64,000 nucleotides of DNA from Bradyrhizobium sediminis (GTDB lineage: Bacteria > Pseudomonadota > Alphaproteobacteria > Rhizobiales > Xanthobacteraceae): NCBI RefSeq assembly GCF_018736085.1, contig NZ_CP076134.1:5466501-5530500 (forward strand), read 5' to 3'. The notes under the pieces are model-generated. The model did not search any database, had not been told where the DNA came from, and saw only the letters and a program-made list of their open reading frames with translations. Positions 7,722-64,000 of this stretch are shown piece by piece (position 1 is the stretch's first letter; each line of letters opens with the position of its first letter). Position numbers and translations under genes: made by a program.

Positions 7722-7838
7722 TCGCTCCAAGTCGGCCGCAAATTTGTACGCGCCCCGCCTTGTTTTCGACCTCACGGGACCGAGAAACCCGGGGAACTTC
7801 CGGTTCCAGGGGACGGAACACCGGAGGAGAACATACTC

Positions 7839-44303: not shown

Positions 44304-44380
44304 GCACCCGTAGCTCAGCTGGATAGAGCGTTGCCCTCCGAAGGCAAAGGTCACACGTTCGAATCGTGTCGGGTGCGCCA
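44304..44380 (+). tRNA. tRNA-Arg (anticodon CCG)
   Basis: A full 77-base cloverleaf can be drawn. The acceptor arm is GCACCCG with CGGGTGC, discriminator G and encoded CCA (44378-44380). The D-loop is AGCTCAGCTGGATAGAGC. The anticodon stem TTGCC/GGCAA encloses loop CTCCGAA with anticodon CCG. The T-arm is CACACGTTCGAATCGTGT. It reads CGG arginine codons. The accessory DNA that follows suggests its 3' end has served as an integration site, although no second attachment copy is visible within the window. Confidence 0.97.
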
Positions 44381-45267: not shown

Positions 45268-45511
45268 AAAACCATGGGGGTCACCTCGGCGTTCTAATTT
45301 CAGGCAGTCATCATTTGGTCATCTATGTCTACGTCTTTGACCGCCATGGGTCCAAGAAGCAACTCTGCACGTTGCGAATTCTTGATTTCCGCACGCCAGA
45401 GTTCGGAGGGATCGAAGACCTACATAGTCGGGAAGCCGTAGAGCCATGCCCTTTTGACTCGACGGTGAGGCTATATATCATGGCGATCTTTTATGTACTT
45501 GAGGAGTGTCC

Positions 45512-45964
45512 ATGGTTCTTCTCGCGCCAGCCGTCGGCGGATGCAGTTGCGGCAAGCTGCGATACAGCATCATCAAGGAGCCTTTAACTGTCTATATCTG
45601 TCATTGCCATCAATGTCAGAAGAGAACCGGCAGCCCATTTAGCATGTCGCTTGTAATGCCGGCAGACGGCTTTCGCCTCGATGAAGGCGAGCCTGTGCGG
45701 AGTGAACGAGTTCTGCATACTGGACAAAAAAACTATTCGGTTTCATGCGGTGCATGCTACTCACGCCTCTACACCCAACGAAATGTTTCGGAGACGCTCA
45801 ATTTGCGCGCTGGGACGTTGGATGAAACCAGCCAAATTCGGCCCGTCGTGCAGATGTGGACCAGCAGCGCTCAACCGTGGGCCATTCAACAAGATATTCT
45901 GAGCTACTCCGAGCAGCCAACCGACTACACACCTTGGCTCGACGCGTGGAAGGCTAGAGAGTAG
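45512..45964 (+). CDS. GFA family (CENP-V/GFA) zinc protein
   Basis: This 150-residue protein of the glutathione-dependent formaldehyde-activating fold has zinc-ligand motifs GGCSCGKLRY (residues 10-19), ICHCHQCQKRTGSPF (30-44), and SCGAC near 80. The second zinc site usually reads CGxCG; here it is CGACYS, slightly altered. The family's substrates are mostly unknown. The ribosome site GAGGAG precedes the ATG at 45512. The gene is less GC-rich than the chromosomal part of the window, as expected in an acquired region. Confidence 0.8.
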   Translation: MVLLAPAVGGCSCGKLRYSIIKEPLTVYICHCHQCQKRTGSPFSMSLVMPADGFRLDEGEPVRSERVLHTGQKNYSVSCGACYSRLYTQRNVSETLNLRAGTLDETSQIRPVVQMWTSSAQPWAIQQDILSYSEQPTDYTPWLDAWKARE

Positions 45965-46164
45965 CTCGACGTGCTACCGGCAAAGGCTTTGACGGTTCTA
46001 CGATGATTGCTGGAAAGGCGCGTTACATGGAGAAGTCCACAAGGTCCCGCCCCCGAACGACCACCGCAATCACGATACGGCCAATGAACGAGAGCGACGT
46101 ACCGGAGCTGCTTCGGCTCATGCGTGCGATCGTCAGCTTTGAGCGTGCTCAGAACTTCAGCTTA

Positions 46165-47331
46165 TACCAACGGCCTCAAGGAATGACCGTCGCCCAGGTT
46201 CTGGATGTGATTGAGGCAACGCGCTCGGGGTCGTCGGCGAAGAAGCGCCAAGCAGCGCAGGATTTGTCGACAATGTCGTCGTAGCTTTCGAACACGGTGA
46301 TGGCGAGTTTGTTGCCGCGCAGATATTCCCAGACATTCTCGACCGGGTTCAGCTCTGGAGCGTAGGGCGGCAGGCGGACGAGCGTGATGTTGCTTGGAAC
46401 GGAGAGACGCGCCGCGACGTGATAGCCTGCGCCATCAATGACGAGCGCAGCATGTGCTCCCGGCGCAACACGGCGGCCGATTTCGGCCAGATGCATGGAC
46501 ATGGCATCGGTATCGGCGGCGGGCAGGACGAGCGCCGCCGTAGCTCGGCGTTGCGGACAGACGGCGCCAAAAATGTAAGCCCACTCGTAGCGTTGGTCGC
46601 GTGGCGCACGAGGCCTTGTTCCTCGCTTGGCCCAGACGCGGGTCAGCGTCCCTTGCTGGCCGATGCGGGCTTCGTCCTGGAACCAGATTTCGATGGGTTT
46701 GTCTTTCGCGCGGTCGGGGAGTTGCGCCGCGACCGTTGCGGCAAAGTTTTTTTAAAGGCCTCCTGGGCTTCTTCGTCGGCCTGCGGATGGCGCGGACGCA
46801 CCGAGAGCCGGCGGTAGCCGAGCTTCGCCAGCACCTTGCCGACCGAGCGTTCATGCAATGCGACGCCAAAGCGCCGTTGCAACTCGTCGCGCAAATCCAC
46901 GCGCCGCCAGCGCACTACCCCATGGCGAGCCGGATCGGGCCCGGCCTCAACCAGCTTGGCCAGTTCGGCTTGCTGCTCCGCTGTGAGTTTTGGCGTGGGA
47001 CCTGGCGTCTTCAAATCGTGCAGGCCGTCCAAGCCCTCAGCGTTGTAGCGATGCACCCAATCCCGCAGGGTCTGGCGATCCATGCCGCAGCTCTCCGCCG
47101 CCGACTTGCGATCCATCCCATCGAGCACCATCGCAAGAGCCAACATCCGCCGTGCTGCTGAACCATCCTTCTCCCGGCCCGCCGCCGCACGAAGGTCCTT
47201 TGCCGTCAAATCAAGCCGTAGGATCCTAACCGCTCCACCCATCGATGCTGCTCCTCTCAAAAGCAAACATCGAGTCAGAGTTTCTCTGATTTGGGAATCC
47301 CAAAATGAGTCAAAAGCCGCGGCCGTTGGTA
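46165..47331 (-). mobile_element. IS630-type insertion sequence, about 1167 bp
   Basis: TACCAACGGCC at 46165 and its inverse GGCCGTTGGTA ending at 47331 are the terminal inverted repeats. TTA lies on both sides (46162-46164 and 47332-47334). IS630 elements normally duplicate TA; here either a TA or a TTA duplication fits, and the TTA reading restores the host gene frame. The element carries a two-frame transposase on the minus strand. Confidence 0.8.
46176..47242 (-). CDS. IS630 family transposase, two frames joined by a -1 frameshift
   Basis: The first frame (47242 down to about 46745) encodes the helix-turn-helix part: RMLALAMVLDGMDRKSAAES and MDRQTLRDWVHRYNAEGLDGL. The second frame (to 46176) encodes the DDE part, with Asp in IWFQDEARIG, Asp in ALVIDGAGYH, and Glu in ELNPVENVWEYL. 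The switch occurs at TTTAAAAAAAC on the minus strand (A-run at 46747-46753). A -1 slip there gives a continuous protein of about 355 residues. IS630 relatives are known to use such slippage, so I read this as programmed rather than damage. Confidence 0.8.
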
Positions 47332-47718
47332 TTAGACGAAGCGGAGCTGCTTCGCCGTGGCTTCGGTAAGCGGCCCGAATTTGGCGCTTACGTCGCAGAC
47401 GCAGGCACGGGGTCACTCGCCGGAATGGTGGTCCACTACGAAATCCCGTTCATGCATACGCTGCAACCACTTCTGATGCTGAAGTGGCTCTATGTTGATC
47501 CCGAGTGCCGAGGTGGGCGCGTCGGCCAAAGGCTCATGCGGCAAATGGCCCTGCATGCCCGCGCGACAGGGCACGAGCGCTTCTGCTGGTTCGTGCTGAA
47601 CGACAATGTGTTGGCGCATTCATTTTACCGCGGCCTCGGCGCGACGGAGGACCCTGAGTGGCGGCGGTGGATTATGCCTACCAACGCTTTGAACCGACTC
47701 GTGGAAGGCGCAGAATGA

Positions 47719-48703: not shown

Positions 48704-49293
48704 AGGCGCGAGTCTTCTGCTCACAGCCATCGGATAGCTTCCGAGGTAAGCCGATGATGAAACCACCCTAGCTAACTATCGTGAAAAATACTTAGACATA
48801 TCCGAACAAGAGCTGCTTTGATGTGGGTCAAGGTCGAGGCAGCGATTCAGGACACGACACCTCTATAAAGAACCGCTGCAATAAAAAGTTTCTTCTCCAT
48901 CCCTTGTTAGGCCAGTGAAGGCAGGCGGATCACATGGCCGCCGAATTTGCAATTCGGCGGCCCATTGCGATTGGCCCCTTGCGAGATAAAACTCGCCATG
49001 CTGGGGTGCAGACCGCAATGCGGATGCGGCGATGGCACTGAAGTCGAAATGGCCCGCACCGCGACCGGGATGTCGGTCAGGCGCCGTCCTCAAGCTTCCC
49101 ATGAAATAATGCCGCCCCTCTTGGCACCCTGCATTCGCCGTCGGCTGAGCCTGGCATCTGCGGCGACGCACGCTTTCTTGCGCTTGCTTTCCGCAACTCT
49201 TCGAACAGCCAGCGTCACAAGCGTTGATTCAGGTCAATACCCCTGGGCAGAAATCGATCAGTCGTTGGCAACTGGTTCCAACGGCTTATCAGC
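48704..49293. other. Region without recognised genes upstream of the archaeal-type SAM synthetase
   Basis: Nearly 600 bases with lower GC and no ORF I can support. The part just before 49294 (49195-49290) should contain the promoter of the synthetase gene. TCAATACCCCTGGGCA at 49235-49250 is noted but not assigned. Confidence 0.4.
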
Positions 49294-50490
49294 ATGGATC
49301 ATTTCGTCGTCTCTGAGATGGCACCGATCGACAATGCAGTCGAGGTTGTCGAACGGAAGGGGCTAGGTCATCCAGACACGATCTGCGATGGGCTCGCAGA
49401 GGCGTTTTCTCGTGCGCTCTGTCGCGAATACCGGCGACGCTTCGGCGATATCTTCCATCACAACGTCGACAAGGCCCTCTTGTGGGGAGGGCGGGCAATT
49501 CCTCAAATGGGGGGAGGGGAAGTCGTAAGTCCGATCAATGTCTATCTTGCGGGTCGCGCAACAGCGGAGGTCGGAGCCGAGCACATTCCAATCGAGGAAA
49601 TTGCCGTGGAAAGCTCTCGATCCTGGCTGCGCGGTAAACTGCATGCTCTGGATCCGGAACGGCACGTTCGTATCAACGTGCTCACCCGACCGGTATCCCA
49701 AGATCTGCAGGCGCTATTTGCCCGCAGCGCGCAGGGTGACGTCCCGCTTTGCAACGATACTTCGATCGGGGTCGGTCATGCTCCGCTGAGTCGACTTGAG
49801 CAGCTCGTTCTGGCGATTGACAAGCAGATCAATGGAAGAGACCGCTCCAGTGAAAAGCCAGCCTGGGGCGAAGACATCAAGATCATGGCGATCCGATCCG
49901 GCGAAAAGCTGCGGCTGACGATCGCGTGCGCCATGGTTGGCCGCTACCTAGTCGACATCGATGACTACCTTTGCCAGAAAGCCGAGCTCCAACGACTTGC
50001 GCGAGACATAGCGGCAGCACACGGATTTCGGGAGTGTGAGGTTGATGTCAACAACGCTGACCGGCCCGCGTCAGGCAACATCTACCTGACGGTGACGGGC
50101 ACGTCGGCGGAGGCAGGAGATGACGGTCAGGTCGGCCGGGGCAATCGCGTGAACGGCCTGATCACACCATGCCGTCCCATGAGTCTCGAGGCGGTCGCGG
50201 GAAAAAACCCGGCCAGCCATATCGGCAAGATCTACAGCGTTCTGTCGCGACAGGTTGCGCAGTCGGTGGTTGCCGAGGTCAAGGAGACAGCGCATGCCGA
50301 GTGCTTGATAGTCGGTCAAATTGGCGCGCCCATAAACGACCCGGCCATCGTCGCTGTCAACGTCGTTATGCAGGAAGGCTGTCGAGGACTTGATCTGCGC
50401 AATCGAATCGAGGCGATCGCCGCTGACCGGTTCACTCGTATCCGGGCGCTGGCTGATGATTTCGTGAATGGCACGATTGAGTTGTTCTAG
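49294..50490 (+). CDS. Archaeal-type S-adenosylmethionine synthetase
   Basis: This 398-residue protein belongs to the archaeal AdoMet synthetase family (PF01941), which is distinct from bacterial MetK. It makes S-adenosylmethionine from methionine and ATP. Visible motifs are ERKGLGHPDTICDGLAE (around residue 25), VDKALLWGG, the DTSIGVGHAPLS loop near 160, GEDIKIMAIR near 190, and GDDGQVGRGNRVNGLI near 270. Length matches the family (about 400). Bradyrhizobium should already carry bacterial metK, so this is an extra, probably acquired, gene. It is followed after 15 bases by a toroid-fold gene on the same strand and then by an opposing SAM-dependent methyltransferase. Confidence 0.88.
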   Translation: MDHFVVSEMAPIDNAVEVVERKGLGHPDTICDGLAEAFSRALCREYRRRFGDIFHHNVDKALLWGGRAIPQMGGGEVVSPINVYLAGRATAEVGAEHIPIEEIAVESSRSWLRGKLHALDPERHVRINVLTRPVSQDLQALFARSAQGDVPLCNDTSIGVGHAPLSRLEQLVLAIDKQINGRDRSSEKPAWGEDIKIMAIRSGEKLRLTIACAMVGRYLVDIDDYLCQKAELQRLARDIAAAHGFRECEVDVNNADRPASGNIYLTVTGTSAEAGDDGQVGRGNRVNGLITPCRPMSLEAVAGKNPASHIGKIYSVLSRQVAQSVVAEVKETAHAECLIVGQIGAPINDPAIVAVNVVMQEGCRGLDLRNRIEAIAADRFTRIRALADDFVNGTIELF

Positions 50491-50505
50491 CCGGGTAGCG
50501 CATCC

Positions 50506-51588
50506 ATGACTGGCCAGCGAGAGTCGCACACTCAGGCTCATGAGGAGAAGCCTGCCGGGATGCTCGGCGAGCGGCTCCGTCTTGTGTTCGACTGGTACAA
50601 GGGCATGGTCGACGAGCGCACGGGCCGGCTTCTGTATCTGTATGATCCTGAGAATGACGTCACCGTCGGCGACGGCGAACCCATTCGCGACATCGCGGCG
50701 ATCTGGGACGTGGAAGTGCTGAGCGCATTTCTTGGGCGAGACGACCTTTGCCCCCTGGTTCGGCGGTCCCTTGAGCACTTCAGCCGGCTCATCGTCGATC
50801 GAGATGGATACGCGATCGTGGCGGCGAAAGAGGAGCGATCTTCGATCGCCCATAGCGCCTTCCTGGCTCTCGCGCTCGCTCGTTCCGAGCTTTCCGACAA
50901 GACACGGCAGCTTGCGCCGCTTATAGAGGGTATCCTCCGTCAGCAAAGGAAGGACGGCTCTTACAAGATCTTCTTTGGCGCCGAGTCGGATAGCGGCGAG
51001 GAACTGTATCCTGCCGAGGCGATGCTGTCGCTGCTGGAAGCCTACCGGTTGACGAGGGATGCCCGGTACATCGACAGCGTCGAACGCAGCTTTTCACATT
51101 ACAAGCACGCGTACTATGACCGGGGTCGAGTACAGCCGGACTTCCTCGTGTTCTTTGCGAACTGGCAGTCGCAGGCGGGCCGATCGCTTTTCGAGGTTAC
51201 GGCGAAGCCAAAAATGAAGGATCTGGTTCGCTCTTTCCTCTTCGAACTCCAGGATCAGGTGATCGCGAGCGGCTTCTACGATCGTGTGGCGCGCCGGCCG
51301 GAGGCGCAGGCGTGCGTCGAAGTCGCCTGCGCCCTGGAAGGGCTCGCCGACACGTACGCGGTCGCCGCCTCAAGCCAGGACCGGCGGACGGAGGGCTATC
51401 GGCAGCGCATCCTGACGGCGCTTGAATTTCTCATGCGCGCTCAGCGGACGACCGCTTGCACCGCCAGAGAGCGAGGCGGCTTTGGCGGCTCGCTTGCAGT
51501 TCGCGAGCAGCGGATTGACGTGACCGGCCACGTGGCGAGTGGATTCATGAAGAGCGTCGAGAACGGAATCGACGCGGCAGCTGCATGA
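50506..51588 (+). CDS. Alpha/alpha-toroid protein partnered with the SAM synthetase
   Basis: This 360-residue, soluble, helix-rich protein has repeated hairpins typical of (alpha/alpha)6 toroids. Likely active-site elements are LYPAEAMLSLLEAYRLT near 165, SHYKHAYYDR near 195, FFANWQSQAGRSLFE near 215, and RGGFGGSL with QRIDVTGHVASGFMKSVEN at the end. This resembles D-glucuronyl C5-epimerase or N-acylglucosamine epimerase folds but I cannot name the family. It begins 15 bases after the SAM synthetase stop, so the two are almost certainly co-transcribed. The substrate is unknown; a sugar or polymer is a guess from the fold. Confidence 0.7.
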   Translation: MTGQRESHTQAHEEKPAGMLGERLRLVFDWYKGMVDERTGRLLYLYDPENDVTVGDGEPIRDIAAIWDVEVLSAFLGRDDLCPLVRRSLEHFSRLIVDRDGYAIVAAKEERSSIAHSAFLALALARSELSDKTRQLAPLIEGILRQQRKDGSYKIFFGAESDSGEELYPAEAMLSLLEAYRLTRDARYIDSVERSFSHYKHAYYDRGRVQPDFLVFFANWQSQAGRSLFEVTAKPKMKDLVRSFLFELQDQVIASGFYDRVARRPEAQACVEVACALEGLADTYAVAASSQDRRTEGYRQRILTALEFLMRAQRTTACTARERGGFGGSLAVREQRIDVTGHVASGFMKSVENGIDAAAA

Positions 51589-51646: not shown

Positions 51647-52360
51647 TCAAGAATCCTGCTCCCCCGGAATGCCGTACTGCCCGCGCAGATTGACGTAGAG
51701 CACGGTGCAGATGATCTTCTGGGAAACGCCGGTCGTGGACTTTTCGAAGACGGTCAGATCCTGCCCGTTGGCCCCGGTGACCGGAGCAATGAGCCTTCCG
51801 CCAACGGCGAGTTGCTCCAGCAGCGGCGCGGGGATTTCCATACAGGCGGCGGTGAGAGCGATCCGATCATAGGGCTGCAGCTCGGGATAGCCCAAGCCGC
51901 CGTCGGCCAGCACCAGCACGACATCCCGGTAGCCCGCTCTTTCAAGATTGGCTTTGGCGTATTTGAAGGTCACGGGGTCGATTTCCATCGATACCACTTG
52001 GCCCTCCTCGCCCACTACCTCGCGCGCGACCGCTGCCCCGTAGCCAGAGCCCAAGCCTACTTCGAGAAACCTGTGGCCCTGGTCCAGTCCTAGCGGTTCG
52101 TAGAAGAGCGGGTAGCTGTGCGGACAGGAGATGGTCGCCGCGAGCCCGGGCAGCGGCAAAGGCACCTCAAGATAGGCATAATCCCGATACGGCCGCGGAA
52201 TAAAATCCTCCCGCGGCACCTTCAACAACGCCTTTTTGATGAGTTCGGATTTGAGCAGGCCCTGTTTGATGAGCGAGGCGACTTTCTCGCGGCGCTCCCG
52301 GGCAAAATCCGCCTTGCTCTTGCTCGGCTTCCTGGGAGAGGGAATCTGCCAGCCATTCAT
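51647..52360 (-). CDS. pcm: Protein-L-isoaspartate O-methyltransferase
   Basis: This 237-residue SAM-dependent methyltransferase repairs isoaspartyl damage in proteins. Motif I is LEVGLGSGYGAAVAREV, motif post-I is VSMEIDP, motif II is YDRIALTAA, and motif III is LAVGGRLIAPV. The isoaspartyl-binding loop is ISCPHSYPLFYEPL, in place of the more common ISAPHMHA. The gene follows a DJ-1/PfpI gene by 16 bases and forms an operon with it, divided from the convergent SAM synthetase operon by 58 bases. Its use of SAM links it to that operon. Confidence 0.88.
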   Translation of the reverse strand: MNGWQIPSPRKPSKSKADFARERREKVASLIKQGLLKSELIKKALLKVPREDFIPRPYRDYAYLEVPLPLPGLAATISCPHSYPLFYEPLGLDQGHRFLEVGLGSGYGAAVAREVVGEEGQVVSMEIDPVTFKYAKANLERAGYRDVVLVLADGGLGYPELQPYDRIALTAACMEIPAPLLEQLAVGGRLIAPVTGANGQDLTVFEKSTTGVSQKIICTVLYVNLRGQYGIPGEQDS

Positions 52361-52376: not shown

Positions 52377-52886
52377 TCAGCGCGACAGTCTCGTGATCGT
52401 GAAGATCGCCTGAATGAAGGCGGGAAGGTCGGCCGGCCGGCGCGAGGTCACGAGATTACCGTCTACGACCACCTCGCGGTCCAGATAGTTCGCTCCTGCG
52501 GCCTCCAACTCTCGTCGCACCGCACGATAGCAGGTGGCGGTGCGGCCCGCCATGAGGCCGGTAGCGATCAGGAGCTGCGGCCCATGGCAGATCGCTGCCA
52601 CGGGCTTGTCGGCTCGAAGGAAATGCTGGGCGATGGCCACCGCCTCGGGGAGGTTCCGGAGGCTCGCCGGCGCTTCGCCGCCGGGTAACAGCAGCAGGTC
52701 GTAGTCCTCCGGCCGCACCGCGCTGAGGGTGAGGTCCGCACTCACCCTGTGCCCGTGCTTGCCGGTGATAAGCCGCTGCTGCGGTGCGGCGATGTCCACC
52801 TCCACCCCTTTTGCCAGCAACTGTTGCCGCGGCTCGGCGAGTTCGCTGTCTTCGAAGCGATCGGAGCTGACGATCAGGGCTCGCAC
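52377..52886 (-). CDS. DJ-1/PfpI family protein
   Basis: This 169-residue protein has the class I glutamine-amidotransferase-like fold: MRALIVSSDRFEDSELAEPR, the LLLPGGEAP loop, and the nucleophile elbow AAICHGPQLL with Cys near 100. Family members act as deglycases, proteases or chaperones. Paired with an isoaspartyl methyltransferase, a protein-damage repair role is plausible. The GTG start at 52886 is preceded by GGGAGGAG. Confidence 0.85.
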   Translation of the reverse strand: MRALIVSSDRFEDSELAEPRQQLLAKGVEVDIAAPQQRLITGKHGHRVSADLTLSAVRPEDYDLLLLPGGEAPASLRNLPEAVAIAQHFLRADKPVAAICHGPQLLIATGLMAGRTATCYRAVRRELEAAGANYLDREVVVDGNLVTSRRPADLPAFIQAIFTITRLSR

Positions 52887-53157
52887 GCGCTCCTCCCGCT
52901 ATTCCGCCTCGAAGGCCTCAGATGCCAAAAGCCTGCCGCCCCGTCTTGGGAGCAGGCGGGCGTTCCATGCTGCATTTCTGGGTCCTTCCCGAAGAGCGCA
53001 TCAGCCCTACCATTCGGCTATATGAGCCGCTTGATCCCTGTCAAAGAGCCAGATGCCAGTCGTGGCTATAAGAATTGTTTCATTCCCGTCAGTAAACGCC
53101 ATGGATGTTTGCGCCATGTCCGAAGCATCGCCCATCTCCATCGCCGCCGAGGCGAAG

Positions 53158-53520
53158 ATGCACTCTCCACGCATCACGACCATTGCCTGGGGCAGGATCG
53201 AGGTCGAAGGTGTTGGGACGTTCAGAGATGCCAAGCTCTTTCCCGGCGGTGCCCGGGAGTGGGATTGGCGCGAGACCGGGACAGAACACGCGCCTGGTAT
53301 TCAGCCTGCCGATGTACGCGAACTATTGGATCACGGCGCCACGACCATCGTGCTGTCACAAGGTATGTTGAAGCGGCTGGGCATCTGTCACGCGACGCTT
53401 GCGCTGCTGAAGCGGCAAGGCGTGCGCGTGCATGTGCTGCCGACGCAGGATGCCGTCGACATCTATAACGACTTGCGCAAGACAGAGCAGGTCGCAGGGC
53501 TATTCCACACGACCTGTTAG
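53158..53520 (+). CDS. Mth938-like domain protein (DUF498/AAMDC)
   Basis: This 120-residue protein matches the Mth938-like fold: MHSPRITTIAWGRIEVEG, FRDAKLFPGGAREWDWRETG, GATTIVLSQGM, and the end NDLRKTEQVAGLFHTTC. The family is widespread in archaea, bacteria and animals with no settled biochemistry; some members sit in respiratory complex I assembly. I placed the start at the ATG at 53158, where family similarity begins; ATGs at 53116 and 53101 are in frame. The gene is alone. Confidence 0.75.
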   Translation: MHSPRITTIAWGRIEVEGVGTFRDAKLFPGGAREWDWRETGTEHAPGIQPADVRELLDHGATTIVLSQGMLKRLGICHATLALLKRQGVRVHVLPTQDAVDIYNDLRKTEQVAGLFHTTC

Positions 53521-53710: not shown

Positions 53711-54289
53711 TCAAGTCAGTTTCCAGCCCCTTTTGTTGAATTGAACGCATGCCGCAAGACGGACGACATTCTTACCAACGAGTCGATGGTCAACCGCCTG
53801 CCATCCTGCTTCACTCCGCGACGCCATGTACTTGTTCTTGAAAAAGGCACAGTATGGCGGCACGAGCATCCCCATGTGTACGAGCGGTGAGAGGATGCTT
53901 GTTACCGCCTGGTTCCCGCCGTCCTCGTCACAATGGGCTAGTACTCCGACTACCTTCCCCTCTAGCTCGCATGTGTCCTGCTCAAGCGAGGTTAGCCAGT
54001 CGATGAAGCATTTCATGAGGGCGCTCATGTTGAACCAATGGACGGGCGTCGCGAAGACGAAGCCGTCGGCGGTACTCATACTGTCGAACGTACTTTGAAG
54101 TGAGGTTGGGATGTTCGTGAATGAACCGTCGTGGAACTCTTTCACAATGTCGACCAAGTGGATGACCGCCGTATTGGGAGTCTCGCCAAGCTCCGCAATT
54201 TCTTCCGCCGCCGCTCGGAGTGATTCAGACAGAAGTGTGGCAACGGCGCCCGTCTTGGCGGGAGCCCCATTAAAGCCGAGGATTTTCAT
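53711..54289 (-). CDS. Flavodoxin-like NAD(P)H-dependent oxidoreductase
   Basis: This 192-residue protein has the FMN-binding flavodoxin-like fold: MKILGFNGAPAKTGAVATLL with the phosphate loop, then GFVFATPVHWFNMSALMKCF near 80, and VGVLAHCDEDGGNQAV near 120. It fits the FMN reductase family that reduces quinones, azo compounds or metal ions. The start at 54289 (MKILGFNG) is standard; the frame extends to 54334 without support. Decayed repair-gene fragments flank it on both sides. Confidence 0.8.
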   Translation of the reverse strand: MKILGFNGAPAKTGAVATLLSESLRAAAEEIAELGETPNTAVIHLVDIVKEFHDGSFTNIPTSLQSTFDSMSTADGFVFATPVHWFNMSALMKCFIDWLTSLEQDTCELEGKVVGVLAHCDEDGGNQAVTSILSPLVHMGMLVPPYCAFFKNKYMASRSEAGWQAVDHRLVGKNVVRLAACVQFNKRGWKLT

Positions 54290-54349
54290 GTATACATCCC
54301 AATACAGTGTCGGCGGCATCCTGTAGCATGACAAAAAAGCGAAACTCGT

Positions 54350-54639: not shown

Positions 54640-54972
54640 CGTCTCCGCCGACCGTGGTGGCCGCAAGCAGCGCGATCCCGATCGAACAAGTGCCTGGCTG
54701 ATCATCTAAGCCCACGCTTTCAGCATAGAGTTTGGTCCGCTCTGCCGTTACCATGTGGCTTACTTCGACCGAAAGTCGCCTCACCCTCCGGATCGCCCCG
54801 TTCCGAGCGACCTGGTGCCAATCGGCACTGTAGGTTTGACGCCTAGACCTTCGCGCCTGCGCAGAAGGCGAGCGTTGATCTCCGTCAAAGGCGTGGTGGT
54901 GCATGCCGATGGCACCGAGGTGATGCGGCAAACGGTCACTTGACGTGAAGACCCGCTTCGAGGGGAAACCGC
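54640..54972. other. Region without recognised genes
   Basis: Only short Arg/Pro-rich frames are seen. The 3' part should contain the promoter of the small exported protein at 54973. Confidence 0.4.
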
Positions 54973-55217: not shown

Positions 55218-55562
55218 ATGGCAAGGCGCACACGAAAGAGGCCCTTGAAACATGCAGGGCTGAACAGGACAGCGGTCGCCCCGAATGAAGCGACTGCCCC
55301 AGCGCGAAAGCGCAGCGAAGCACCCCTGGTCGCGCCATTTTATGTCGCGGTCGATCGCCAATTGAAATCGGGACACGAAACCTATGAGGCAGCTGAGAAG
55401 GCCGCCGTGGCGGTCAAAAAGCGGTATCCACGGCTTCATGTGACTGTGTACGAGGCCAAAGTTCACCAGCACACTGTCATTGAGCCGCCAAAACCGGCAA
55501 ATTTCCACAACAATAAACTCTCTGCGCAAGGAACCCGGAACGCCCTCAGACGTTGCCAATAG
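55218..55562 (+). CDS. Hypothetical basic protein
   Basis: This 114-residue protein starts MARRTRKRPLKHAG and is Lys/Arg-rich at the N-terminus. Residues 45-90 (APFYVAVDRQLKSGHETYEA then AEKAAVAVKKRYPRLHVTVY) form a compact alpha/beta unit resembling small DUF2188-like domains. The C-terminus is disordered. AGGAGG precedes the ATG. It ends 13 bases before the kinase gene start, so the two are probably co-transcribed. Confidence 0.6.
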   Translation: MARRTRKRPLKHAGLNRTAVAPNEATAPARKRSEAPLVAPFYVAVDRQLKSGHETYEAAEKAAVAVKKRYPRLHVTVYEAKVHQHTVIEPPKPANFHNNKLSAQGTRNALRRCQ

Positions 55563-55575
55563 CTGGAGTGAAGCA

Positions 55576-56571
55576 TTGATTGCGGACTCAGATCGCAAAC
55601 TCCATGTGCCGCTAGATTGGGAGGCGGCTGCCGCCGAAATATTTGAACGCCGCCTGCGCAAGGTCCTTGTCATCGGCGGCTCGGCCGCTGGGAAAAGCAG
55701 CTTCTGTCGGTACCTGGCCGAAGCGCTGCTTGCGCGTCCGGCCGACGTTGCCGTCGTCGATGCTGACATAGGACAGAGCAGTCTTGGTCCACCCACGACG
55801 GTAACCCTGGGCTATGTCACGTCACCGGTCGATTTTTCGACCGTGTCGCCCGCAGCCTTCTACTTCGTCGGCAGCACAGGTCCGATCGGACGCTTCTTGC
55901 CGCTTGTGATCGGGACGGCCAGTCTTTCCCGTGAGGCGCATGCCACGTTCGTGATCATCGATACGACGGGGTTGGTCCATGGATCCGGCCGTGTCCTGAA
56001 GAACTACAAGATCGAAGCTGTTCGGCCGGATGCCATCGTGGCCATCGAAAGACGAAATGAGCTTGCGCCGATCCGCATGGCCAACCGGCATGTGCCAATC
56101 CTCAAGATCAAACCTTCCGGCAGGGCGCATGGCAAGGATGACTACGAAAAGATCGAGGTGCGACGACGGTCATACGCGCGGCACTTTGCCGGAGCCGCGT
56201 CGGTGGAACTCCCGTTCGGCTCGCTCACTTTCCAGCGCACTCTCCTGTTCTCCGGGACTCCGTTTGAACTCGACGGAGCGGTGCGTGCCGAGCGGAGCTC
56301 CGAAGGCATTCTCATTGTCGGCACGCCACCCGCTCCGCCAACCGACAGCAAGCTGTTGCCAGCAGGCTTCGAGAGAAACCTCTTATGCGGAATTGCCGAC
56401 GCGGCCGGCCGCTGTCTAGGACTCGGGATTATCGAACGCATTGACTTTGCGGCCGGCACAATAGCGCTCGTCACTCCGGTCGAGCGCGACAAGATTCAGA
56501 TCATCCAGTTCGGCGATGTGTACGTAACGCCCGAAGGCGGCGAACTCGGACAAATCAAATGGGCCTGGTGA
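55576..56571 (+). CDS. Clp1/Grc3-type P-loop polynucleotide kinase-like protein
   Basis: This 331-residue protein matches the Clp1/Grc3 family (CLP1_P), whose members phosphorylate 5'-hydroxyl ends of RNA or DNA. Visible are Walker A GGSAAGKSSFCRYL (around residue 28), the lid-like VDADIGQSSLGPPTTVTLG near 57, IIDTTGLVHGSGRVLKNYK near 125, and a C-terminal beta-rich part ending QFGDVYVTPEGGE. The N-terminal substrate domain of eukaryotic members is missing, as in archaeal forms. The TTG start at 55576 has GGAG at good spacing; an earlier TTG at 55480 would overlap the previous gene. The family is rare in Proteobacteria. Confidence 0.78.
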   Translation: MIADSDRKLHVPLDWEAAAAEIFERRLRKVLVIGGSAAGKSSFCRYLAEALLARPADVAVVDADIGQSSLGPPTTVTLGYVTSPVDFSTVSPAAFYFVGSTGPIGRFLPLVIGTASLSREAHATFVIIDTTGLVHGSGRVLKNYKIEAVRPDAIVAIERRNELAPIRMANRHVPILKIKPSGRAHGKDDYEKIEVRRRSYARHFAGAASVELPFGSLTFQRTLLFSGTPFELDGAVRAERSSEGILIVGTPPAPPTDSKLLPAGFERNLLCGIADAAGRCLGLGIIERIDFAAGTIALVTPVERDKIQIIQFGDVYVTPEGGELGQIKWAW

Positions 56572-57295: not shown

Positions 57296-57408
57296 CGGAA
57301 CATTTGACGTAGATCAACGCCGCCGATCCTTTGATGGATATTAGTATGCAGTTTCGATCGTCCCAGTGAGGTACGGGGTTCCTTGCAGCCTATTGGCGGT
57401 GACATGCG

Positions 57409-57630
57409 ATGATTACATTTAATGTTGTCAAAGAGCAGCACGGCTGGGCCATCCGGATGGATAAGCGCATGATGACGCCCTTCTGGTCGAGAGAGTTAGC
57501 GATCCGAGAGGCGAACTGTCTGGCCCGCGCCATCCGCCGCCATGGCGAGTGCGCGGAAGTAGTTGTCGAGGGTGCCGTCCCGAGCGAGCCGCTTACGAAG
57601 ACCACGGACGCGAGATCCGTCTCGGCTTGA
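57409..57630 (+). CDS. Small DUF2188-like protein
   Basis: This 73-residue protein (MITFNVVKEQHGWAIRMDKR... ) has the short beta-hairpin then helix pattern of DUF2188-like proteins: GWAIRMDKRMMTPFWSRELA and a following helix rich in Arg. Function is unknown. It ends 80 bases before the glucan-synthase-like gene and may be read through into it. Confidence 0.5.
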   Translation: MITFNVVKEQHGWAIRMDKRMMTPFWSRELAIREANCLARAIRRHGECAEVVVEGAVPSEPLTKTTDARSVSA

Positions 57631-57710: not shown

Positions 57711-60700
57711 ATGCTTGTCGAGATCGATGACTTCGCGGGCCGGCGTAGATCGCGCCTCAAGAGTGCGCTGAGCTTGTGGTTTCGGCGCGGACCGTCCCCG
57801 CCATGGGACGACGGAGCTCCCATCCGGGCCGAGCTGTTTAGTGTCGAACGGCTTGAAGAACACGCGCGCAGCCTTGCCACCGCGCAAGCCGTGACGCCCG
57901 GCCGCGTGAAGGGCGCCTCGTTGTCGATGAGGCTGGCTGACAATGAGGCTATGCTTCTGGCCGCCTACCGCGACGTCGCCAAGGCTGTCGATGCGGGGGC
58001 GGCCATCACCCCCACGGCCGAGTGGCTGATCGACAATTTTTATGTGGTGGAGAAGCAGATCCGCGAGGTCCGGGTCGATCTACCGCCCGGCTACTATCGG
58101 CAGCTACCCAAGCTCGCCAGCGGACCCTTTGCGGGGTATCCGCGCGTGCTCGGCGTGGCTTGGGCGTATGTGGCCCACACCGACAGCCTCTTCGACCCGG
58201 AGGTGCTGCACCGCTACCTGCGCGCTTATCAGGAAGTGCAGCCGCTGAGCATTGGCGAACTGTGGGCGGTGGCGACCACCTTGCGCATCGTGCTCGTCGA
58301 GAACCTCAGGCGGATCGCCGAGCGCGTCGTCGACAGCCGGGTCGGGCGCGACGCCGCAGACGTCGTGGCGGACCGGTTGCTGGGGACTGGCGAGCGCGCC
58401 GTCGAACCAGCCGAGGTCGTCCTTCCGCAGCATCCACAGGCAACATTCCCAGACAGTTTTCTCATGCAGTTGGTCCATCGGTTGCGCGATCAGGATCCCA
58501 GCGTTGCGCCGGCGTTAGAGTGGCTCGACGAGCAGCTGGCCCGGCAGGGAACGACTGCCGAAGCCGTCGTTCGCGGCGAGCACCAGAGGCAGGTCGCCGG
58601 CGCCGTCACAGTGCGTAATATCATCACCAGCATGCGCCTCATCACCGACGTCGATTGGACGGAGCTGTTCGAGCGCGTCAGCCTGGTCGATGACGTCTTC
58701 AAGGCCGGCAGCGCCTTCGAGCGCATGGATTTCCCGTCGCGCAATCTCTATCGCAACGCAGTCGAACACCTCGCTCGCGGCTGTAAACTCACCGAATTGG
58801 AAGTAGCTCACGCGGCAGTGGAGACGGCGAGGCGAGCGTTCGAGGCGAGTGCCGATGACGGCAACGTCCGCCTGACAGATCCCGGTTACTACTTGATCGC
58901 GGGCGGGCGAGCCGGATTCGAAGCGGCGATCGGCTTCAGGCCATCTCCGATGGGCTGGCCGCGACTGGCCTATCGCGCGCTGGGAATCGGCGGCTATGTC
59001 GGCTCCGGCACTGTGGTCGCAGCCGGCCTGCTGGCCGTGCCGTTGTCTGTCGCCGCATGGGATGGTCTGGAGTGGAGATGGCTGCTGCTGCTCGGGATTC
59101 TCGGATTCGTCCCGGCGATCGACTTAGCCGTTGCGGTCGTCAACTACCTCATCACCCGAAGTTTCCGCGCCACCTTGCTGCCGGCGCTCGAGCTGCGTGG
59201 CGGTATCCCCGCAGACCTGCGCACTCTGGTCGCCGTGCCGACGCTGCTGACCTCGCTCAAAGAAATCGAGGAGCAGATCGGCCGGCTCGAAATCCACTAC
59301 CTGGCGAGCGCTCAGGGCGATCTTCATTTCGCGTTGCTGTCCGATTGGCGCGATGCGCCTACCGAGCATGAGGCCGGCGACGAAGAGCTGCTGGCCGCAG
59401 CAAAAGACGGCATCGCGAGGCTGAACCAACGCTACGGACCTGCACCGGGCGGCGACCGCTTCCTGCTGTTGCATCGGCGGCGCGTGTGGAGCGAATGCGA
59501 ATGCTGTTGTATGGGGTGGGAACGAAAGCGCGGGAAGCTGTGCGAACTCAATCGGCTCCTGCGGGGCGCCAAGGACACTACATTTGTGGCGCCCCCCACT
59601 GTGCCCAATAATGTGCGGTACGTCGTCACGCTCGATGCGGACACGCGGCTCCCCCGCGAGACGGTCGGACGGCTGATCGGCAAGATGGCGCATCCTCTGA
59701 ACCGGCCGCGCTTTGACCCAGATCTGGGGCGAGTCGTCGAAGGCTACGGGATCCTGCAGCCGAGGGTCACGCCTGCACTGCCGGTGGGGCGCGAAGGCTC
59801 GCTCTTTCTGCGCGTGTTCTCCCGCGCAACCGGCATCGATCCCTACGTCGCAGCGGTCTCGGACGTGTACCAAGACCTGTTCGGTGAAGGTTCATATACA
59901 GGCAAGGGCATCTACGACGTGGACGCCTTTGAGGCGGCGCTACACGGACGCGTGCCGGAGTCAACGCTCCTCAGCCACGATCTGTTCGAGGGGATATTCG
60001 CCCGCGCCGGCCTGGCCTCTGATGTCGAGGTGGTGGAGGATTTCCCCCCTCGCTATGACGTTGCCGCTCTTCGCCACCACCGCTGGGCGCGAGGCGACTG
60101 GCAGCTGCTACCTTGGCTCTTCGGACGTGGGCCCAGACGGGCCGGTCATCGGCCGCTGTCGGGGGTTCCCGCGATCGGCCGCTGGAAGATGCTCGATAAC
60201 CTGCGGCGGTCGCTGGCTGCGCCGACGGTTGTTGCGGCCCTGATCGCAGGATGGGCCATGCCGCTTGAAGAAGCGGCGCTCTGGACCGGTTTCATTCTAT
60301 CGACGATCGTCCTGCCGCCACTTATTCCCGTGATCGCGGAGATCGCACCGCGCCGCCCCGGCGTGACGCTGCGCAGTCATGTCCGGGCTCTGGGCGCGGA
60401 GCTGCGCCTTGCGCTTATCCAGTCTGGCCTGATGATCGTTTTCCTGGCTCACCAGGCTTGGCTGATGGGTGACGCAATCTTTCGCACCCTGGTACGGCTC
60501 GCGGTTACGCGCCGCAACCTTCTCGAATGGGTCCCTGCGGCCCACGCGGCGTTCGGGCCGCATCCACGGGCGCTGCGCTTCTACCGCCGAATGTCTGGGG
60601 CCTTGGTCATTGGCGCTGTAGCCATGGGCGTGGCTTGGTTCTGGGGACGACAAACGTGGCCCTTGGCTGCCGTGTTCGTGGGAGCCTGGTTCGCCTCTCC

Positions 60701-63700
60701 GACCGTTGCACTTTGGGCGAGCCTGTCGCCTCGAGTCTTGGGCCGGCGTCCGCTGGCCGAAGCCGACGCGCATAGTTTACGCCGTATAGCCCGAAGGACA
60801 TGGCGTTTCTTCGAAGCATCGGTCACACCGACCGACAACATGCTTCCGCCAGACAATTTGCAAGAAGCTCCAGAGTTCGTGTTAGCCCATCGCACATCGC
60901 CGACCAATATCGGCCTCTATTTGTTGTCGGTAGCGTGCGCGCGGGACTTCGGATGGATCGGGACCCTCGAGGGTGTGGAGCGCCTCGAGGCGACGCTCGC
61001 GACCATGGATCGGCTGACAAAGTGCCGGGGCCACTTCTTCAATTGGTACGATACACGTGACCTGCGTCCGCTCGATCCGCAGTACGTGTCCTCGGTCGAC
61101 AGCGGGAACCTTGCTGGACACCTGATCGCGCTCGCCAACGCGTGCCATGAGTGGAGCACCTCGGCCATGGCGGAGCAGCAGCGCATGCAAGGCGTGGCGG
61201 ATGTTCTCGACCTGGTCCGGGACGAGGCTCGCCGGTTGCGCGGCCTGCGCAAGTTTCAGGCGGTGTCATGGCGGCGGCTCGATGACGAGATTGCACGACT
61301 AGCGTCTAGCCTGCTTCAGGTGAGTGCCGGCGCCATTGGTATCGAACAGCGGCTCGCGGAACTTTCCGAACAGGCCGCGATCGTGGCGGACGCGGTCCAT
61401 CAGATCGTTCTCGAAGAAAGCGACCAGGCGGGCGCGGACCTGCAGTTCTGGGCAGATGCACTAGGTGCCTGCATGGAAAGTCACCGGCGCGATCTCCGCG
61501 CGACTAGCGAAGACTCGCTGGAGGAGCGGCTGAAGTCGCTGGAGGAAGCCGCGCGGTTGACAGCGCTGTCGATGGAGTTCGACTTTCTGCTCGACCCCGA
61601 GCGGCTGCTGCTCTCAATCGGATATCGGGCGCCTGAGGGCGAGCTCGATCCGCGCTGTTATGACCTTCTCGCCTCGGAGGCGAGGCTGGCAAGCTTCTTG
61701 GCCATCGCCAAGAGGGACGCACCGGCGCGGCATTGGTTCCGGCTGGGCCGTGCGGTGACTGCGGTAGCAAATGGCGCAGCACTGATCTCGTGGTCGGGCT
61801 CGATGTTCGAGTACCTGATGCCTTCCATCGTCATGAAGGCGCCGGCCGAGAGCTTGATCGAGCAGACCAATCGGCTGATTGTCCGCCGCCAGATCGAGTA
61901 TGGAGCGACGATGCGGGCGCCGTGGGGCGTCTCGGAGTCCGCATACAACGCGCAAGATCTGGAGTTCACTTACCAATACTCCAACTTCGGCATTCCAGGT
62001 CTCGGCCTGAAGCGAGGGCTGGCGGATGATGTCGTGGTCGCTCCCTATGCCACCGCCCTGGCGAGCATGGTCGACCCTCAGGCCGCCGTGCAGAACTTCG
62101 AGCGGCTCGAAGTCCTTGGCGCCCGCGGCCGTTATGGTTTCTACGAGGCGCTGGACTTCACGCGAGCCCGCGTTCCGGACGGAGATCGCCTTGCCATTGT
62201 GCGTGCTTTCATGGCCCACCACCAAGGCATGACGATCACCGCGATCGCCGATGCCCTGCTGGATGGTGTGATGCGAAACCGCTTCCATGCTGAGCCGATC
62301 GTTCAGGCGACAGAGTTGCTTCTGCAGGAGCGCGTGCCACGCGACGTCACGGCGACTCCACCGCTGGTCTCGGATGCGATGTCGGCGGCCAGGATCCGCG
62401 AGATCGAAGGACCCGGCACTTGGCGAAAGGCCAGCCCATACACCGCTACGCCCGCCACGCAGCTGCTGTCGAACGGTCGCTACTCCGTGATGCTTACGGC
62501 GGCCGGGTCTGGCTACAGCGCCTGGCGCGACCTGGCCGTCACGCGCTGGCGAGAGGACGCCACCTGCGACGATTGGGGCTCGTACGTCTTCTTGAGGGAC
62601 ATCGCGAGCGGCCAAGTCTGGTCGGCGACCTACCAGCCGACTGATACCGAGCCTGAGGCGTGCGAGGTCACCTTCAACGAGGATCGCGCTGAGTTCACGC
62701 GTCGAGACGGGGCGCTGACGACCAACATGGAGGTGCTGGTTTCCACCGAAGACGATGCGGAAGTGCGCCGCGTGACGATCTCCAATGTCGGCGACCAACT
62801 GCGCGAGATTGAGGTGACTTCCTATGTCGAACTGGCTCTGGCGTGGCAAGCCGCGGACCTGACACACCCCGCGTTCTCGAAACTGTTCACCGAGACCGAG
62901 CATCTCGCCGGCCTCGGCGCCATATTGGCGACCAGGCGACGGCGGGCGCCCACGGACCCGCAGATCTGGGCTGCGCACCTGGCGGTAGTCGACGGTATGG
63001 CGGCGGGCAAGCGCGAGTTCGAGACCGATCGCGCTCGGTTTCTGGGTCGAGGCGGCAGTATTCGCGCGCCGGGCGCAGTGATGGGCGGCCGGCCACTCTC
63101 CGGCTCGACCGGTGCGGTGCTCGATCCGATATTTGCCCTGCGCCGCCGGGTGCGGATCGCGCCGGGCGCGACGGCACGGATCGACTTCTGGACGATGGTC
63201 GCCTCCTCACGCCAGGAGATCCTCGATCTTGCCGACAAGCACCACGATGTCGGCGCCTTCGAGCGCGCCGCTGCGCTCGCCTGGACGCAAGCCCAGGTGC
63301 AATTGCACCACCTCGGCATCACTCGCGGCGAGGCCGGGCAATACCAGCGTCTGGCGGGTCACCTCGTCTACGCGGCGCCCGTGCTGCGCGCGCCGTCGGA
63401 AACCATCGAAAGCGGGAGTGGTGGGCAGCCGGGCTTGTGGGGCATGGGCATATCTGGCGATCTGCCGATCATCCTGGTCCGCATCTCCGACATTGACCAA
63501 CTCGGTGTGGCGCGCGAGGCGCTCCAGGCGGCGGAATATTGGCGGATGAAACGGCTTGCGGTGGACTTGGTTATCGTCAACGAGCTCGCCTCTTCCTACG
63601 TTCAGGATCTCCAGACCGCACTCGAAACCCTGGTGAGGGCCAGCCAATCCCGGGTCCAGATTGGAGAAGATGGGCAGGCCGGGCACACCTTCATGCTGCG

Positions 63701-64000
63701 CGCCGACCTGACCTCGCCGGAGGCCCTGGGCCTTCTTGCGTCCGTCGCGCGTGTCATCCTAGTCGGAGCGCGCGGCCGGCTCGCCGATCAGCTTGAGCGC
63801 GCGCCCGTAGCGAGGCCTTTGCCCCGGGTCACAGCACAGCGCGGTCCGCCAGCTTCCGAGCTTCAGATCTCGCGACGGCCACCTGGCGTGGAGTTCTTCA
63901 ATAGTCTGGGTGGCTTCGCCGAGGGTGGCCGCGACTACGTGACGATCCTCGGCCCGGGCCAATCGACGCCGGTGCCGTGGATCAACGTCATCGCCAATCC
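57711..64000 (+). CDS. Cyclic beta-1,2-glucan synthase-type protein (GT84-GH94), 5' part
   Basis: An uninterrupted frame of nearly 2100 codons runs off the window edge; complete homologues (NdvB/ChvB) have about 2800. It builds and shapes cyclic glucans exported to the periplasm. Visible are membrane segments (about 425-480), the glycosyltransferase part with VVTLDADTRLPRETVGRLIG, DVYQDLFGEGSYTGKGIYDV and HHRWARGDWQLLPWLFG, and more membrane segments (about 840-1010). A glucoamylase-like region follows (TSPTNIGLYLLSVA, SVDSGNLAGHLIALA), then AFMAHHQGMTITAI and the start of the phosphorylase-like part. The start is the ATG at 57711 (MLVEIDDF). Bradyrhizobium normally makes beta-1,3/1,6 cyclic glucans with a different synthase, so this gene may be acquired. 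Confidence 0.85.
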   Translation, partial: MLVEIDDFAGRRRSRLKSALSLWFRRGPSPPWDDGAPIRAELFSVERLEEHARSLATAQAVTPGRVKGASLSMRLADNEAMLLAAYRDVAKAVDAGAAITPTAEWLIDNFYVVEKQIREVRVDLPPGYYRQLPKLASGPFAGYPRVLGVAWAYVAHTDSLFDPEVLHRYLRAYQEVQPLSIGELWAVATTLRIVLVENLRRIAERVVDSRVGRDAADVVADRLLGTGERAVEPAEVVLPQHPQATFPDSFLMQLVHRLRDQDPSVAPALEWLDEQLARQGTTAEAVVRGEHQRQVAGAVTVRNIITSMRLITDVDWTELFERVSLVDDVFKAGSAFERMDFPSRNLYRNAVEHLARGCKLTELEVAHAAVETARRAFEASADDGNVRLTDPGYYLIAGGRAGFEAAIGFRPSPMGWPRLAYRALGIGGYVGSGTVVAAGLLAVPLSVAAWDGLEWRWLLLLGILGFVPAIDLAVAVVNYLITRSFRATLLPALELRGGIPADLRTLVAVPTLLTSLKEIEEQIGRLEIHYLASAQGDLHFALLSDWRDAPTEHEAGDEELLAAAKDGIARLNQRYGPAPGGDRFLLLHRRRVWSECECCCMGWERKRGKLCELNRLLRGAKDTTFVAPPTVPNNVRYVVTLDADTRLPRETVGRLIGKMAHPLNRPRFDPDLGRVVEGYGILQPRVTPALPVGREGSLFLRVFSRATGIDPYVAAVSDVYQDLFGEGSYTGKGIYDVDAFEAALHGRVPESTLLSHDLFEGIFARAGLASDVEVVEDFPPRYDVAALRHHRWARGDWQLLPWLFGRGPRRAGHRPLSGVPAIGRWKMLDNLRRSLAAPTVVAALIAGWAMPLEEAALWTGFILSTIVLPPLIPVIAEIAPRRPGVTLRSHVRALGAELRLALIQSGLMIVFLAHQAWLMGDAIFRTLVRLAVTRRNLLEWVPAAHAAFGPHPRALRFYRRMSGALVIGAVAMGVAWFWGRQTWPLAAVFVGAWFASPTVALWASLSPRVLGRRPLAEADAHSLRRIARRTWRFFEASVTPTDNMLPPDNLQEAPEFVLAHRTSPTNIGLYLLSVACARDFGWIGTLEGVERLEATLATMDRLTKCRGHFFNWYDTRDLRPLDPQYVSSVDSGNLAGHLIALANACHEWSTSAMAEQQRMQGVADVLDLVRDEARRLRGLRKFQAVSWRRLDDEIARLASSLLQVSAGAIGIEQRLAELSEQAAIVADAVHQIVLEESDQAGADLQFWADALGACMESHRRDLRATSEDSLEERLKSLEEAARLTALSMEFDFLLDPERLLLSIGYRAPEGELDPRCYDLLASEARLASFLAIAKRDAPARHWFRLGRAVTAVANGAALISWSGSMFEYLMPSIVMKAPAESLIEQTNRLIVRRQIEYGATMRAPWGVSESAYNAQDLEFTYQYSNFGIPGLGLKRGLADDVVVAPYATALASMVDPQAAVQNFERLEVLGARGRYGFYEALDFTRARVPDGDRLAIVRAFMAHHQGMTITAIADALLDGVMRNRFHAEPIVQATELLLQERVPRDVTATPPLVSDAMSAARIREIEGPGTWRKASPYTATPATQLLSNGRYSVMLTAAGSGYSAWRDLAVTRWREDATCDDWGSYVFLRDIASGQVWSATYQPTDTEPEACEVTFNEDRAEFTRRDGALTTNMEVLVSTEDDAEVRRVTISNVGDQLREIEVTSYVELALAWQAADLTHPAFSKLFTETEHLAGLGAILATRRRRAPTDPQIWAAHLAVVDGMAAGKREFETDRARFLGRGGSIRAPGAVMGGRPLSGSTGAVLDPIFALRRRVRIAPGATARIDFWTMVASSRQEILDLADKHHDVGAFERAAALAWTQAQVQLHHLGITRGEAGQYQRLAGHLVYAAPVLRAPSETIESGSGGQPGLWGMGISGDLPIILVRISDIDQLGVAREALQAAEYWRMKRLAVDLVIVNELASSYVQDLQTALETLVRASQSRVQIGEDGQAGHTFMLRADLTSPEALGLLASVARVILVGARGRLADQLERAPVARPLPRVTAQRGPPASELQISRRPPGVEFFNSLGGFAEGGRDYVTILGPGQSTPVPWINVIAN

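Follow-up and report, generated by a model that had tools for sequence, protein, structure and literature searches.

Bacteria that already encode the synthetase MetK should have no need of a second S-adenosylmethionine (SAM) synthetase, and the locus described here raises the question of what such an enzyme does in one of them. The window, by which we mean the whole 64,000-nucleotide stretch analysed (Bradyrhizobium sediminis, assembly GCF_018736085.1, contig NZ_CP076134.1, positions 5,466,501 to 5,530,500 of the forward strand), contains a gene for an archaeal-type SAM synthetase (hereafter MAT), followed after 15 bases on the same strand by a gene for a probable alpha/alpha-toroid protein (the toroid protein), with a protein-L-isoaspartate O-methyltransferase (PCMT) as the second gene downstream of MAT. 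The explanation that we favour, with somewhat better than even confidence, is that MAT is a mobile, oxygen-controlled extra source of SAM for co-regulated methyltransferases, PCMT being the likeliest consumer within the island that carries it.

49294 to 50490, plus strand: MAT, archaeal-type S-adenosylmethionine synthetase (PF01941), 398 amino acids; Pfam E 2.4e-149 and active-site residues
50506 to 51588, plus strand: 360-amino-acid protein of a family without curated name, probably an alpha/alpha-toroid; conserved relatives and weak toroid-family matches
51647 to 52360, minus strand: PCMT (PF01135); Pfam E 1.9e-53

The match of MAT to PF01941 is full length (498 bits against a cut-off of 27, profile positions 15–394 of 395), and in a control scan of 14 genomes this family was matched in four, every one archaeal. 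MAT also passed the NCBIfam subfamily model NF003366 (517 bits, cut-off 435) and none of four NCBIfam equivalog models. Contact residues of archaeal enzymes were taken, in P. furiosus numbering, from the parts of PMC8727953 and PMC3853416 that give them; where text and legend of the source differ (D168 and D198) we took D198, and N158 is T. kodakarensis N161 shifted by three. All nine active-site residues checked are conserved in MAT (H26, H55, N57, D137, L138, N154, D194, Y264, and D276). A bacterial MetK is encoded elsewhere on the same 5.55-Mb contig (PF02773, E 1.6e-65), which makes a housekeeping role for MAT in its own genome unlikely. The original prediction for this locus had proposed an intact PF01941 synthetase in a bacterium already equipped with MetK, and both points are confirmed; its alternative suggestion, a synthetase repurposed for another substrate, finds no support because all nine residues are conserved. 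We infer that MAT is a genuine accessory synthetase, with a predicted activity of making SAM from methionine and ATP.

Putative control sites suggest when MAT would be expressed. The FixK2 consensus is given as TTGA/C-N6-T/GCAA in PMC9104804, and we scanned for this looser box as well as for a strict box, TTGA-N6-TCAA. The window holds six strict boxes where 0.58 are expected (0 of 100 shuffles as high) and 11 looser boxes where 3.88 are expected (1 of 100 shuffles as high). An 88-kb stretch has seven strict copies, of which five fall within the island, against an expectation of 0.2 (0 of 400 simulations as high):

48818 to 48831, no strand: FixK2/FNR-type box TTGATGTGGGTCAA, from the motif scan
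49224 to 49237, no strand: FixK2/FNR-type box TTGATTCAGGTCAA, centre 63.5 bp upstream of the MAT ATG
53031 to 53044, no strand: FixK2/FNR-type box TTGATCCCTGTCAA, 63.5 bp upstream of one candidate DUF498 ATG and 151.5 bp upstream of PfpI
54875 to 54888, no strand: FixK2/FNR-type box TTGATCTCCGTCAA, from the motif scan
57304 to 57317, no strand: FixK2/FNR-type box TTGACGTAGATCAA, centre 98.5 bp upstream of a 73-amino-acid open reading frame (ORF) at 57409–57630

From these boxes we predict that, most likely, a FixK2/FNR-type regulator activates MAT in this strain at low oxygen.

The description of MAT as mobile rests on the 23.9-kb island, integrated at a tRNA-Arg gene, in which it and the toroid gene are carried. 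One border lies in the window:

44304 to 44380, plus strand: tRNA-Arg(CCG), island insertion site; ARAGORN
44336 to 44380, no strand: attL-like 45-bp repeat; exact direct repeat

The repeat consists of the last 45 bases of the tRNA gene, and a second exact copy lies beyond the window (68243–68287 in window numbering; locus L046, 4243–4287), and each border has the tRNA 3′ end. An integrase remnant that looks shortened lies immediately inside the far repeat (L046:3381–4073), with Arm-DNA-bind_3 and positions 110–169 of the 172 of Phage_integrase. The GC content of the island, 61.3%, is below that of the flanks (64.1% and 63.4%). At the same locus in the relative G006 both flanks align and one att copy is present; nothing between the window repeats aligns, and about 11.4 kb of other DNA follows the tRNA, between the flanks. 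The congeners G007, G010, and G014 carry an exact 45-base copy apart from their tRNA match, which fits the tRNA-Arg site being an insertion hot spot. No clean empty site was seen in the relatives compared (G006, G001, and G015), and the right-flank gene beside the tRNA was not found in the G001 and G015 stretches. An origin from a plasmid or virus was considered and rejected: plasmids gave no toroid match (MAT was not searched there), and neither gene had a confirmed match when viral contigs were scanned by pattern.

To identify the likely users of the additional SAM we turned to MAT loci in other genomes. PF01941 exceeded the cut-off in 7 of 146 genomes of the genus, that of the window included, and in 8 of 287 genomes of the phylum to which the genome of L005 belongs, which we take to be Acidobacteriota. 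Outside the genome of the window there were 26 matches over the cut-off, and the 24 examined comprise 16 alphaproteobacterial loci (counting the short MATs of L039 and L042) and 8 acidobacterial loci; left unexamined were fragments in G049 and G954 and below-cut-off matches in G282, G437, G563, and G1184. The recurrent neighbours of alphaproteobacterial MATs are SAM-dependent methyltransferases, often with low-oxygen control sites. PCMT (the repair methyltransferase also known as PIMT) is adjacent or fused to MAT in 4 of the 16 loci (L041, L082, L085, and L087) and adjoins it in either order; in L087 (8607–10484) the two form a natural fusion, a single 625-amino-acid ORF with PF01941 at residues 11–376 and PF01135 at 432–614. 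An ICMT/PEMT-like methyltransferase lies within 4 kb of MAT in another six (L034–L038 and L040), all of them also with genes for DUF2933 and FtsX-type transporters (compared against the L035 copies), five with an HMA-type metal ATPase and four with a cupredoxin. A strict box stands 52–57 bp upstream of DUF2933 in L035–L038, about 58 bp upstream of it in L034 (at a start codon of our choosing), and 56.5 bp upstream of a PGA_cap-PCMT-MAT string in L041. In total, 266 kb from 15 alphaproteobacterial MAT loci (L042 left out) contain 21 strict boxes, against one in 125 kb from the 8 acidobacterial loci, a gap that may be partly genome-wide. MetK was found in 14 of the 15 alphaproteobacterial PF01941 genomes tested, that of the window included; the exception is G1035, of 1.1 Mb.

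Three of the PCMT-linked loci have further features of their own. The string in L041 (1434–10941) lies a few kb from genes for a cbb3 oxidase (COX1, FixO, and FixP), another link to low oxygen. In L085 (1931–6431) the genes after MAT-PCMT encode nicotinate phosphoribosyltransferase, a universal stress protein, and RtcB, a setting that resembles a damage-repair neighbourhood. The PCMT after MAT in L082 (9492–11375) possibly begins, as judged by eye, with a signal-peptide-like stretch, which would place it outside the cytoplasm.

Several observations weigh against a co-regulated SAM supply for methyltransferases, or against PCMT as its consumer. The excess of boxes in the window is weaker with the looser consensus than with the strict one. 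L040 has no strict box upstream of DUF2933, and L033, L083, L084, and L087 have none in the fetched DNA (4 of 15 alphaproteobacterial MAT loci). Where the six ICMT loci have a box, it stands before DUF2933 and not before MAT, and in L037 a metal-ATPase gene on the opposite strand intervenes before MAT; because other genes intervene in several loci, the DUF2933 boxes need not control MAT. In the window PCMT is neither directly adjacent nor fused to MAT: it is convergent with MAT, with the toroid gene between them, and is more divergent in sequence, 36–41% identical to the MAT-linked PCMTs. The other loci make PCMT a plausible main consumer, and the case for it is weaker here. Neither a PCMT nor an ICMT gene was found in the fetched DNA of 6 of the 16 alphaproteobacterial loci, in which L033 has FNT, L039 a metal ATPase, L042 only a weak ABC-ATPase match, L083 an IF-2B relative, L084 HlyD and phosphoketolase, and L086 an inositol-phosphate-synthase relative; the IF-2B-family neighbour, considered for a methionine-salvage link, does not reach the cut-off of any of the six NCBIfam models listed. 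PCMT was near MAT in none of the 8 acidobacterial loci within fetched DNA, and no MetK was found in 6 of the 8 acidobacterial PF01941 genomes (for which completeness is not given), so MAT is probably the housekeeping enzyme in Acidobacteriota. On a tree of MATs, the PCMT label shows no clustering beyond chance (96 of 500 shuffles gave a value as low). Finally, mat is not among the microoxia-induced genes and proteins in Table 2 of PMC6515984, and the published FixK2-dependent mat gene of B. diazoefficiens, bll7989, is likened to these MATs by its label and its gene order.

Some of these points favour a broader role, in which MAT lifts the general SAM pool at low oxygen and so serves radical-SAM enzymes, the synthesis of haem and of nitrogen-fixation cofactors, and methyltransferases of every kind, with no tie to PCMT. 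The commonest alphaproteobacterial context, the ICMT/metal-ATPase type without PCMT (6 of 16 loci), agrees with such a role. HemN1, HemN2, and NifB are radical-SAM enzymes. Table 2 of PMC6515984 lists all three, and the SAM-dependent methyltransferase bll7982, as induced in microoxia, and hemN2 is FixK2-dependent according to PMC9104804; because mat is absent from that Table 2 and radical-SAM enzymes are present, we moved weight towards the general pool. A general role would not predict an association as specific as that seen in 4 of 16 loci, where PCMT stands beside MAT, in either order, or is fused to it; we regard this broader role as possible but doubtful, retaining the supply of co-regulated methyltransferases as the preferred explanation.

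The tree bears on how old the association with PCMT might be. It comprises 39 rows (16 of 120 listed proteins were used, and L039 and L042 were left out) and places the PCMT-linked MATs towards the base of the accessory group, with three changes needed. An ancestral MAT-PCMT link is put forward as a suggestion, because the root is by midpoint only and several basal branches are weak or long. Should it hold, the ancestral job of the mobile, oxygen-controlled MAT of Alphaproteobacteria might have been to feed isoaspartate repair directly, up to a single fused enzyme, sustaining repair in non-growing microoxic cells as normal SAM falls; we advance this only tentatively. Separately, the housekeeping SAM synthetase has apparently been replaced by the archaeal type in G1035 and in six genomes of the Terriglobia phylum in which no MetK was found (L099–L104; genomes G1224, G1291, G1345, G1337, G1322, and G1299).

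The close spacing of MAT and the toroid gene raises the further question of whether the two form a pair. The original prediction had placed the second gene 15 bases after the synthetase, which is borne out by both ORFs, and had read the toroid protein as the partner of MAT in a dedicated SAM supply. A two-gene pathway of this kind, with MAT taking methionine, or an analogue of it, as substrate and the toroid enzyme using the product, would agree with the 15-base gap, the common strand, and the single box upstream of both. Among the named genomes that our counts cover (outside them, metagenome contigs carry the nearest relatives of the two genes, such as P0122 at 81%), MAT was near the toroid gene in 0 of 16 toroid loci, in fetched DNA of up to 10 kb each side; PF01941 occurred anywhere in 0 of 15 other toroid-bearing genomes (two loci are from one genome); and the toroid gene was near MAT in 0 of the 24 other PF01941 loci examined, within fetched DNA that includes some short contigs. 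The toroid protein was rejected as a conserved partner of MAT on these counts, and the lack of co-occurrence is what the prediction itself had named as telling against the partnership. With the substrate residues of MAT conserved as well, we consider the two-gene pathway very unlikely. What survives of the dedicated supply is a likely special-purpose source of SAM, without the toroid protein as a conserved partner. Within the window the toroid gene is probably co-transcribed with MAT, to which it is most likely a local addition, and its product is probably a passenger with a separate role, possibly carbohydrate-related.

The toroid protein itself gave no Pfam match over the cut-off (Pec_lyase E 0.016, C5-epim_C E 0.082), no NCBIfam match, and no PDB match by sequence, in keeping with the prediction that no family could be named for it. 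It nevertheless represents a real protein family, because 38 other rows align with it, mostly at full length, and 533 protein clusters are related to it at E <= 0.001 (8000 candidates scored). Weak profile matches to pectate lyase, C5-epimerase, and 2-epimerase lie around residues 138–210, with the two sub-threshold Pfam matches at residues 170–208 and the PDB-match stretches within 138–210; across the 39 members the best Pec_lyase match has E 0.0017 and the best PDB match E 0.47. We take the families weakly matched by these members to be mostly alpha/alpha toroids, the presumed exceptions being DOG1 (7 of 39 members) and FAD-SLDH and GyrB_insert (one each). The predicted toroid fold gains weak support from the matches of the window protein at 138–210, of which those listed are below the cut-off, and is plausible from the sequence.

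In the genus the toroid gene occurs in 1 of 146 genomes, that of the window, and a pattern scan recovered it in 16 loci of named genomes, from Nitrosospira, Nitrosovibrio, Nitrosomonas, Mycobacterium, Mycolicibacterium, Terriglobia, Verrucomicrobia, Myxococcaceae, and an unplaced Pseudomonadota. L019 and L020, where the match is partial and split over two ORFs, were left out of the alignment (A2). A distant relative lies in a 626-amino-acid ORF of G038 (L004; 27% identity, E 1.7e-10), for which no Pfam or NCBIfam family was matched at the limits used. The neighbours differ from locus to locus, with PGA_cap in L005 and L013, PCMT in L017, and trehalose genes in L013. In the latter (6699–8542) the toroid gene shares a one-base overlap with the end of a trehalose-phosphatase gene, and a gene for trehalose-phosphate synthase (GT20) is close by, which hints at a sugar-related role. 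Two other neighbours are a PF01112 beta-aspartyl-peptidase relative in seven Nitrosospira-group loci, another isoaspartate-related neighbour (a gene cluster over the seven loci, annotated from L007 only and below the NCBIfam cut-off), and, in Nitrosospira multiformis Nl18 (L010:6274–7320), a CLP1/NOL9-like P-loop protein such as is also present in the island.

Neighbours that vary in this way, among PGA_cap, the beta-aspartyl-peptidase relative, trehalose genes, and PCMT, are also compatible with chance cargo, in which MAT, the toroid gene, and PCMT would be independent island genes without functional link; the transposase part and the integrase remnant in the island point in the same direction. 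Five boxes of one type within the island and the recurrence of MAT in methyltransferase contexts speak against it, and we judge chance cargo highly improbable beside a co-regulated SAM source. The cargo comprises GFA, MAT, toroid, PCMT, PfpI, DUF498, flavoprotein, CLP1/NOL9-like, GH94 cyclic-glucan-synthase-like, and NUDIX proteins, and the remaining annotated features are:

45506 to 45964, plus strand: GFA-type protein (PF04828), cargo; Pfam E 3.1e-27
46643 to 47416, minus strand: transposase-like helix-turn-helix part, presumably of the IS630 family; Pfam HTH_33, HTH_32, and others
47305 to 47718, plus strand: GNAT acetyltransferase part; Pfam E 2.2e-11
52377 to 52886, minus strand: DJ-1/PfpI-family protein, upstream of PCMT on the same strand; Pfam E 5.6e-52
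53053 to 53520, plus strand: DUF498/DUF598 protein, start codon uncertain; Pfam E 3.6e-12
53711 to 54334, minus strand: FMN reductase-like flavoprotein (PF03358); Pfam E 3.7e-22
55480 to 56571, plus strand: CLP1/NOL9-like P-loop protein (PF16575); Pfam E 5.4e-32
57711 to 64000, plus strand: cyclic-glucan-synthase-like GH94 protein (glycoamylase and GH94 supersandwich); Pfam E 2.9e-80

The GNAT gene region (46003–47718) is apparently broken by a transposase insertion inside the island, and the frame of the GH94 protein continues into L046 as far as base 2296, its C-terminal part matching Glyco_hydro_94 at E 5.8e-122.

In the mechanism that we propose, the gene pair would travel as cargo of the 23.9-kb island at tRNA-Arg; at low oxygen a FixK2/FNR-type regulator would turn the MAT gene on; and MAT would add SAM for SAM-dependent methyltransferases made under the same low-oxygen conditions. 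Within the island the nearby PCMT would be the likeliest user, methylating the isoaspartate of damaged (aged) proteins. A recurrent, sporadic, and apparently low-oxygen-controlled MAT beside repair and metal-stress methyltransferases suggests that SAM supply is limiting in cells that are microoxic or not growing, for example soil bacteria and nodule bacteroids, and the natural MAT-PCMT fusion makes the idea of a supply for repair directly testable with one purified protein.

Among known systems, the nearest structures to MAT are archaeal methionine adenosyltransferases (PDB 6s81 of P. furiosus and 4hpv of Sulfolobus solfataricus), with which it aligns over most of its length with active-site residues kept; unlike them, it is island-borne, belongs to subfamily NF003366, and occurs in a bacterium with MetK. 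PDB 4l4q is presumably the methionine adenosyltransferase of T. kodakarensis. The toroid protein has a weak profile likeness, at residues 138–210, to alpha/alpha-toroid sugar enzymes (pectate lyase, C5-epimerase, and N-acylglucosamine/cellobiose 2-epimerase), from which it differs in that its listed matches are below the cut-off. In the literature searched, on bacterial archaeal-type SAM synthetases and on isoaspartate methyltransferase together with SAM synthetase, we found no report of a MAT-PCMT link or fusion, and no description of an accessory FixK2-dependent mat as archaeal-type or PCMT-linked. Induction of a PCMT in microoxia is on record for bll4651 of B. diazoefficiens, with a 28.7-fold change in transcript and a log2 change of 4.6 in protein; Table 2 of PMC6515984 marks it as a direct FixK2 target, among 71 further genes induced in transcript and protein and not in the 62-protein core. 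The Cu-ATPase/cupredoxin/DUF2933/isoprenylcysteine methyltransferase string of Alteromonas and others (PMC8478169) has the same four genes as those near MAT in L035–L038; the main text of that paper does not contain the term 'S-adenosylmethionine', and the window island showed no such string. Published data already document FixK2 control of an accessory mat: bll7986–bll7993 of B. diazoefficiens is listed in Table 2 of PMC9104804 as HlyD, permease, ABC ATPase, 'mat', hypothetical, ICMT, DUF2933, and hypothetical, and at 0.5% O2 the 'mat' gene bll7989 was 5.3-fold lower, and the DUF2933 gene 23-fold lower, in a fixK2 deletion strain, the motif listed for bll7989 being an imperfect one (TTGAGCCAATGCAG at −203). 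The window island lacks those neighbours, and its MAT branches apart from those of L034–L038 on the tree. The latter loci, likened to the B. diazoefficiens genes by their neighbours and the 'mat' label, depart from them in that no ABC ATPase was matched in L038, an FNT gene lies between in L036, and a metal ATPase in L037; otherwise they keep closely the same gene order, with FixK2-type control in common.

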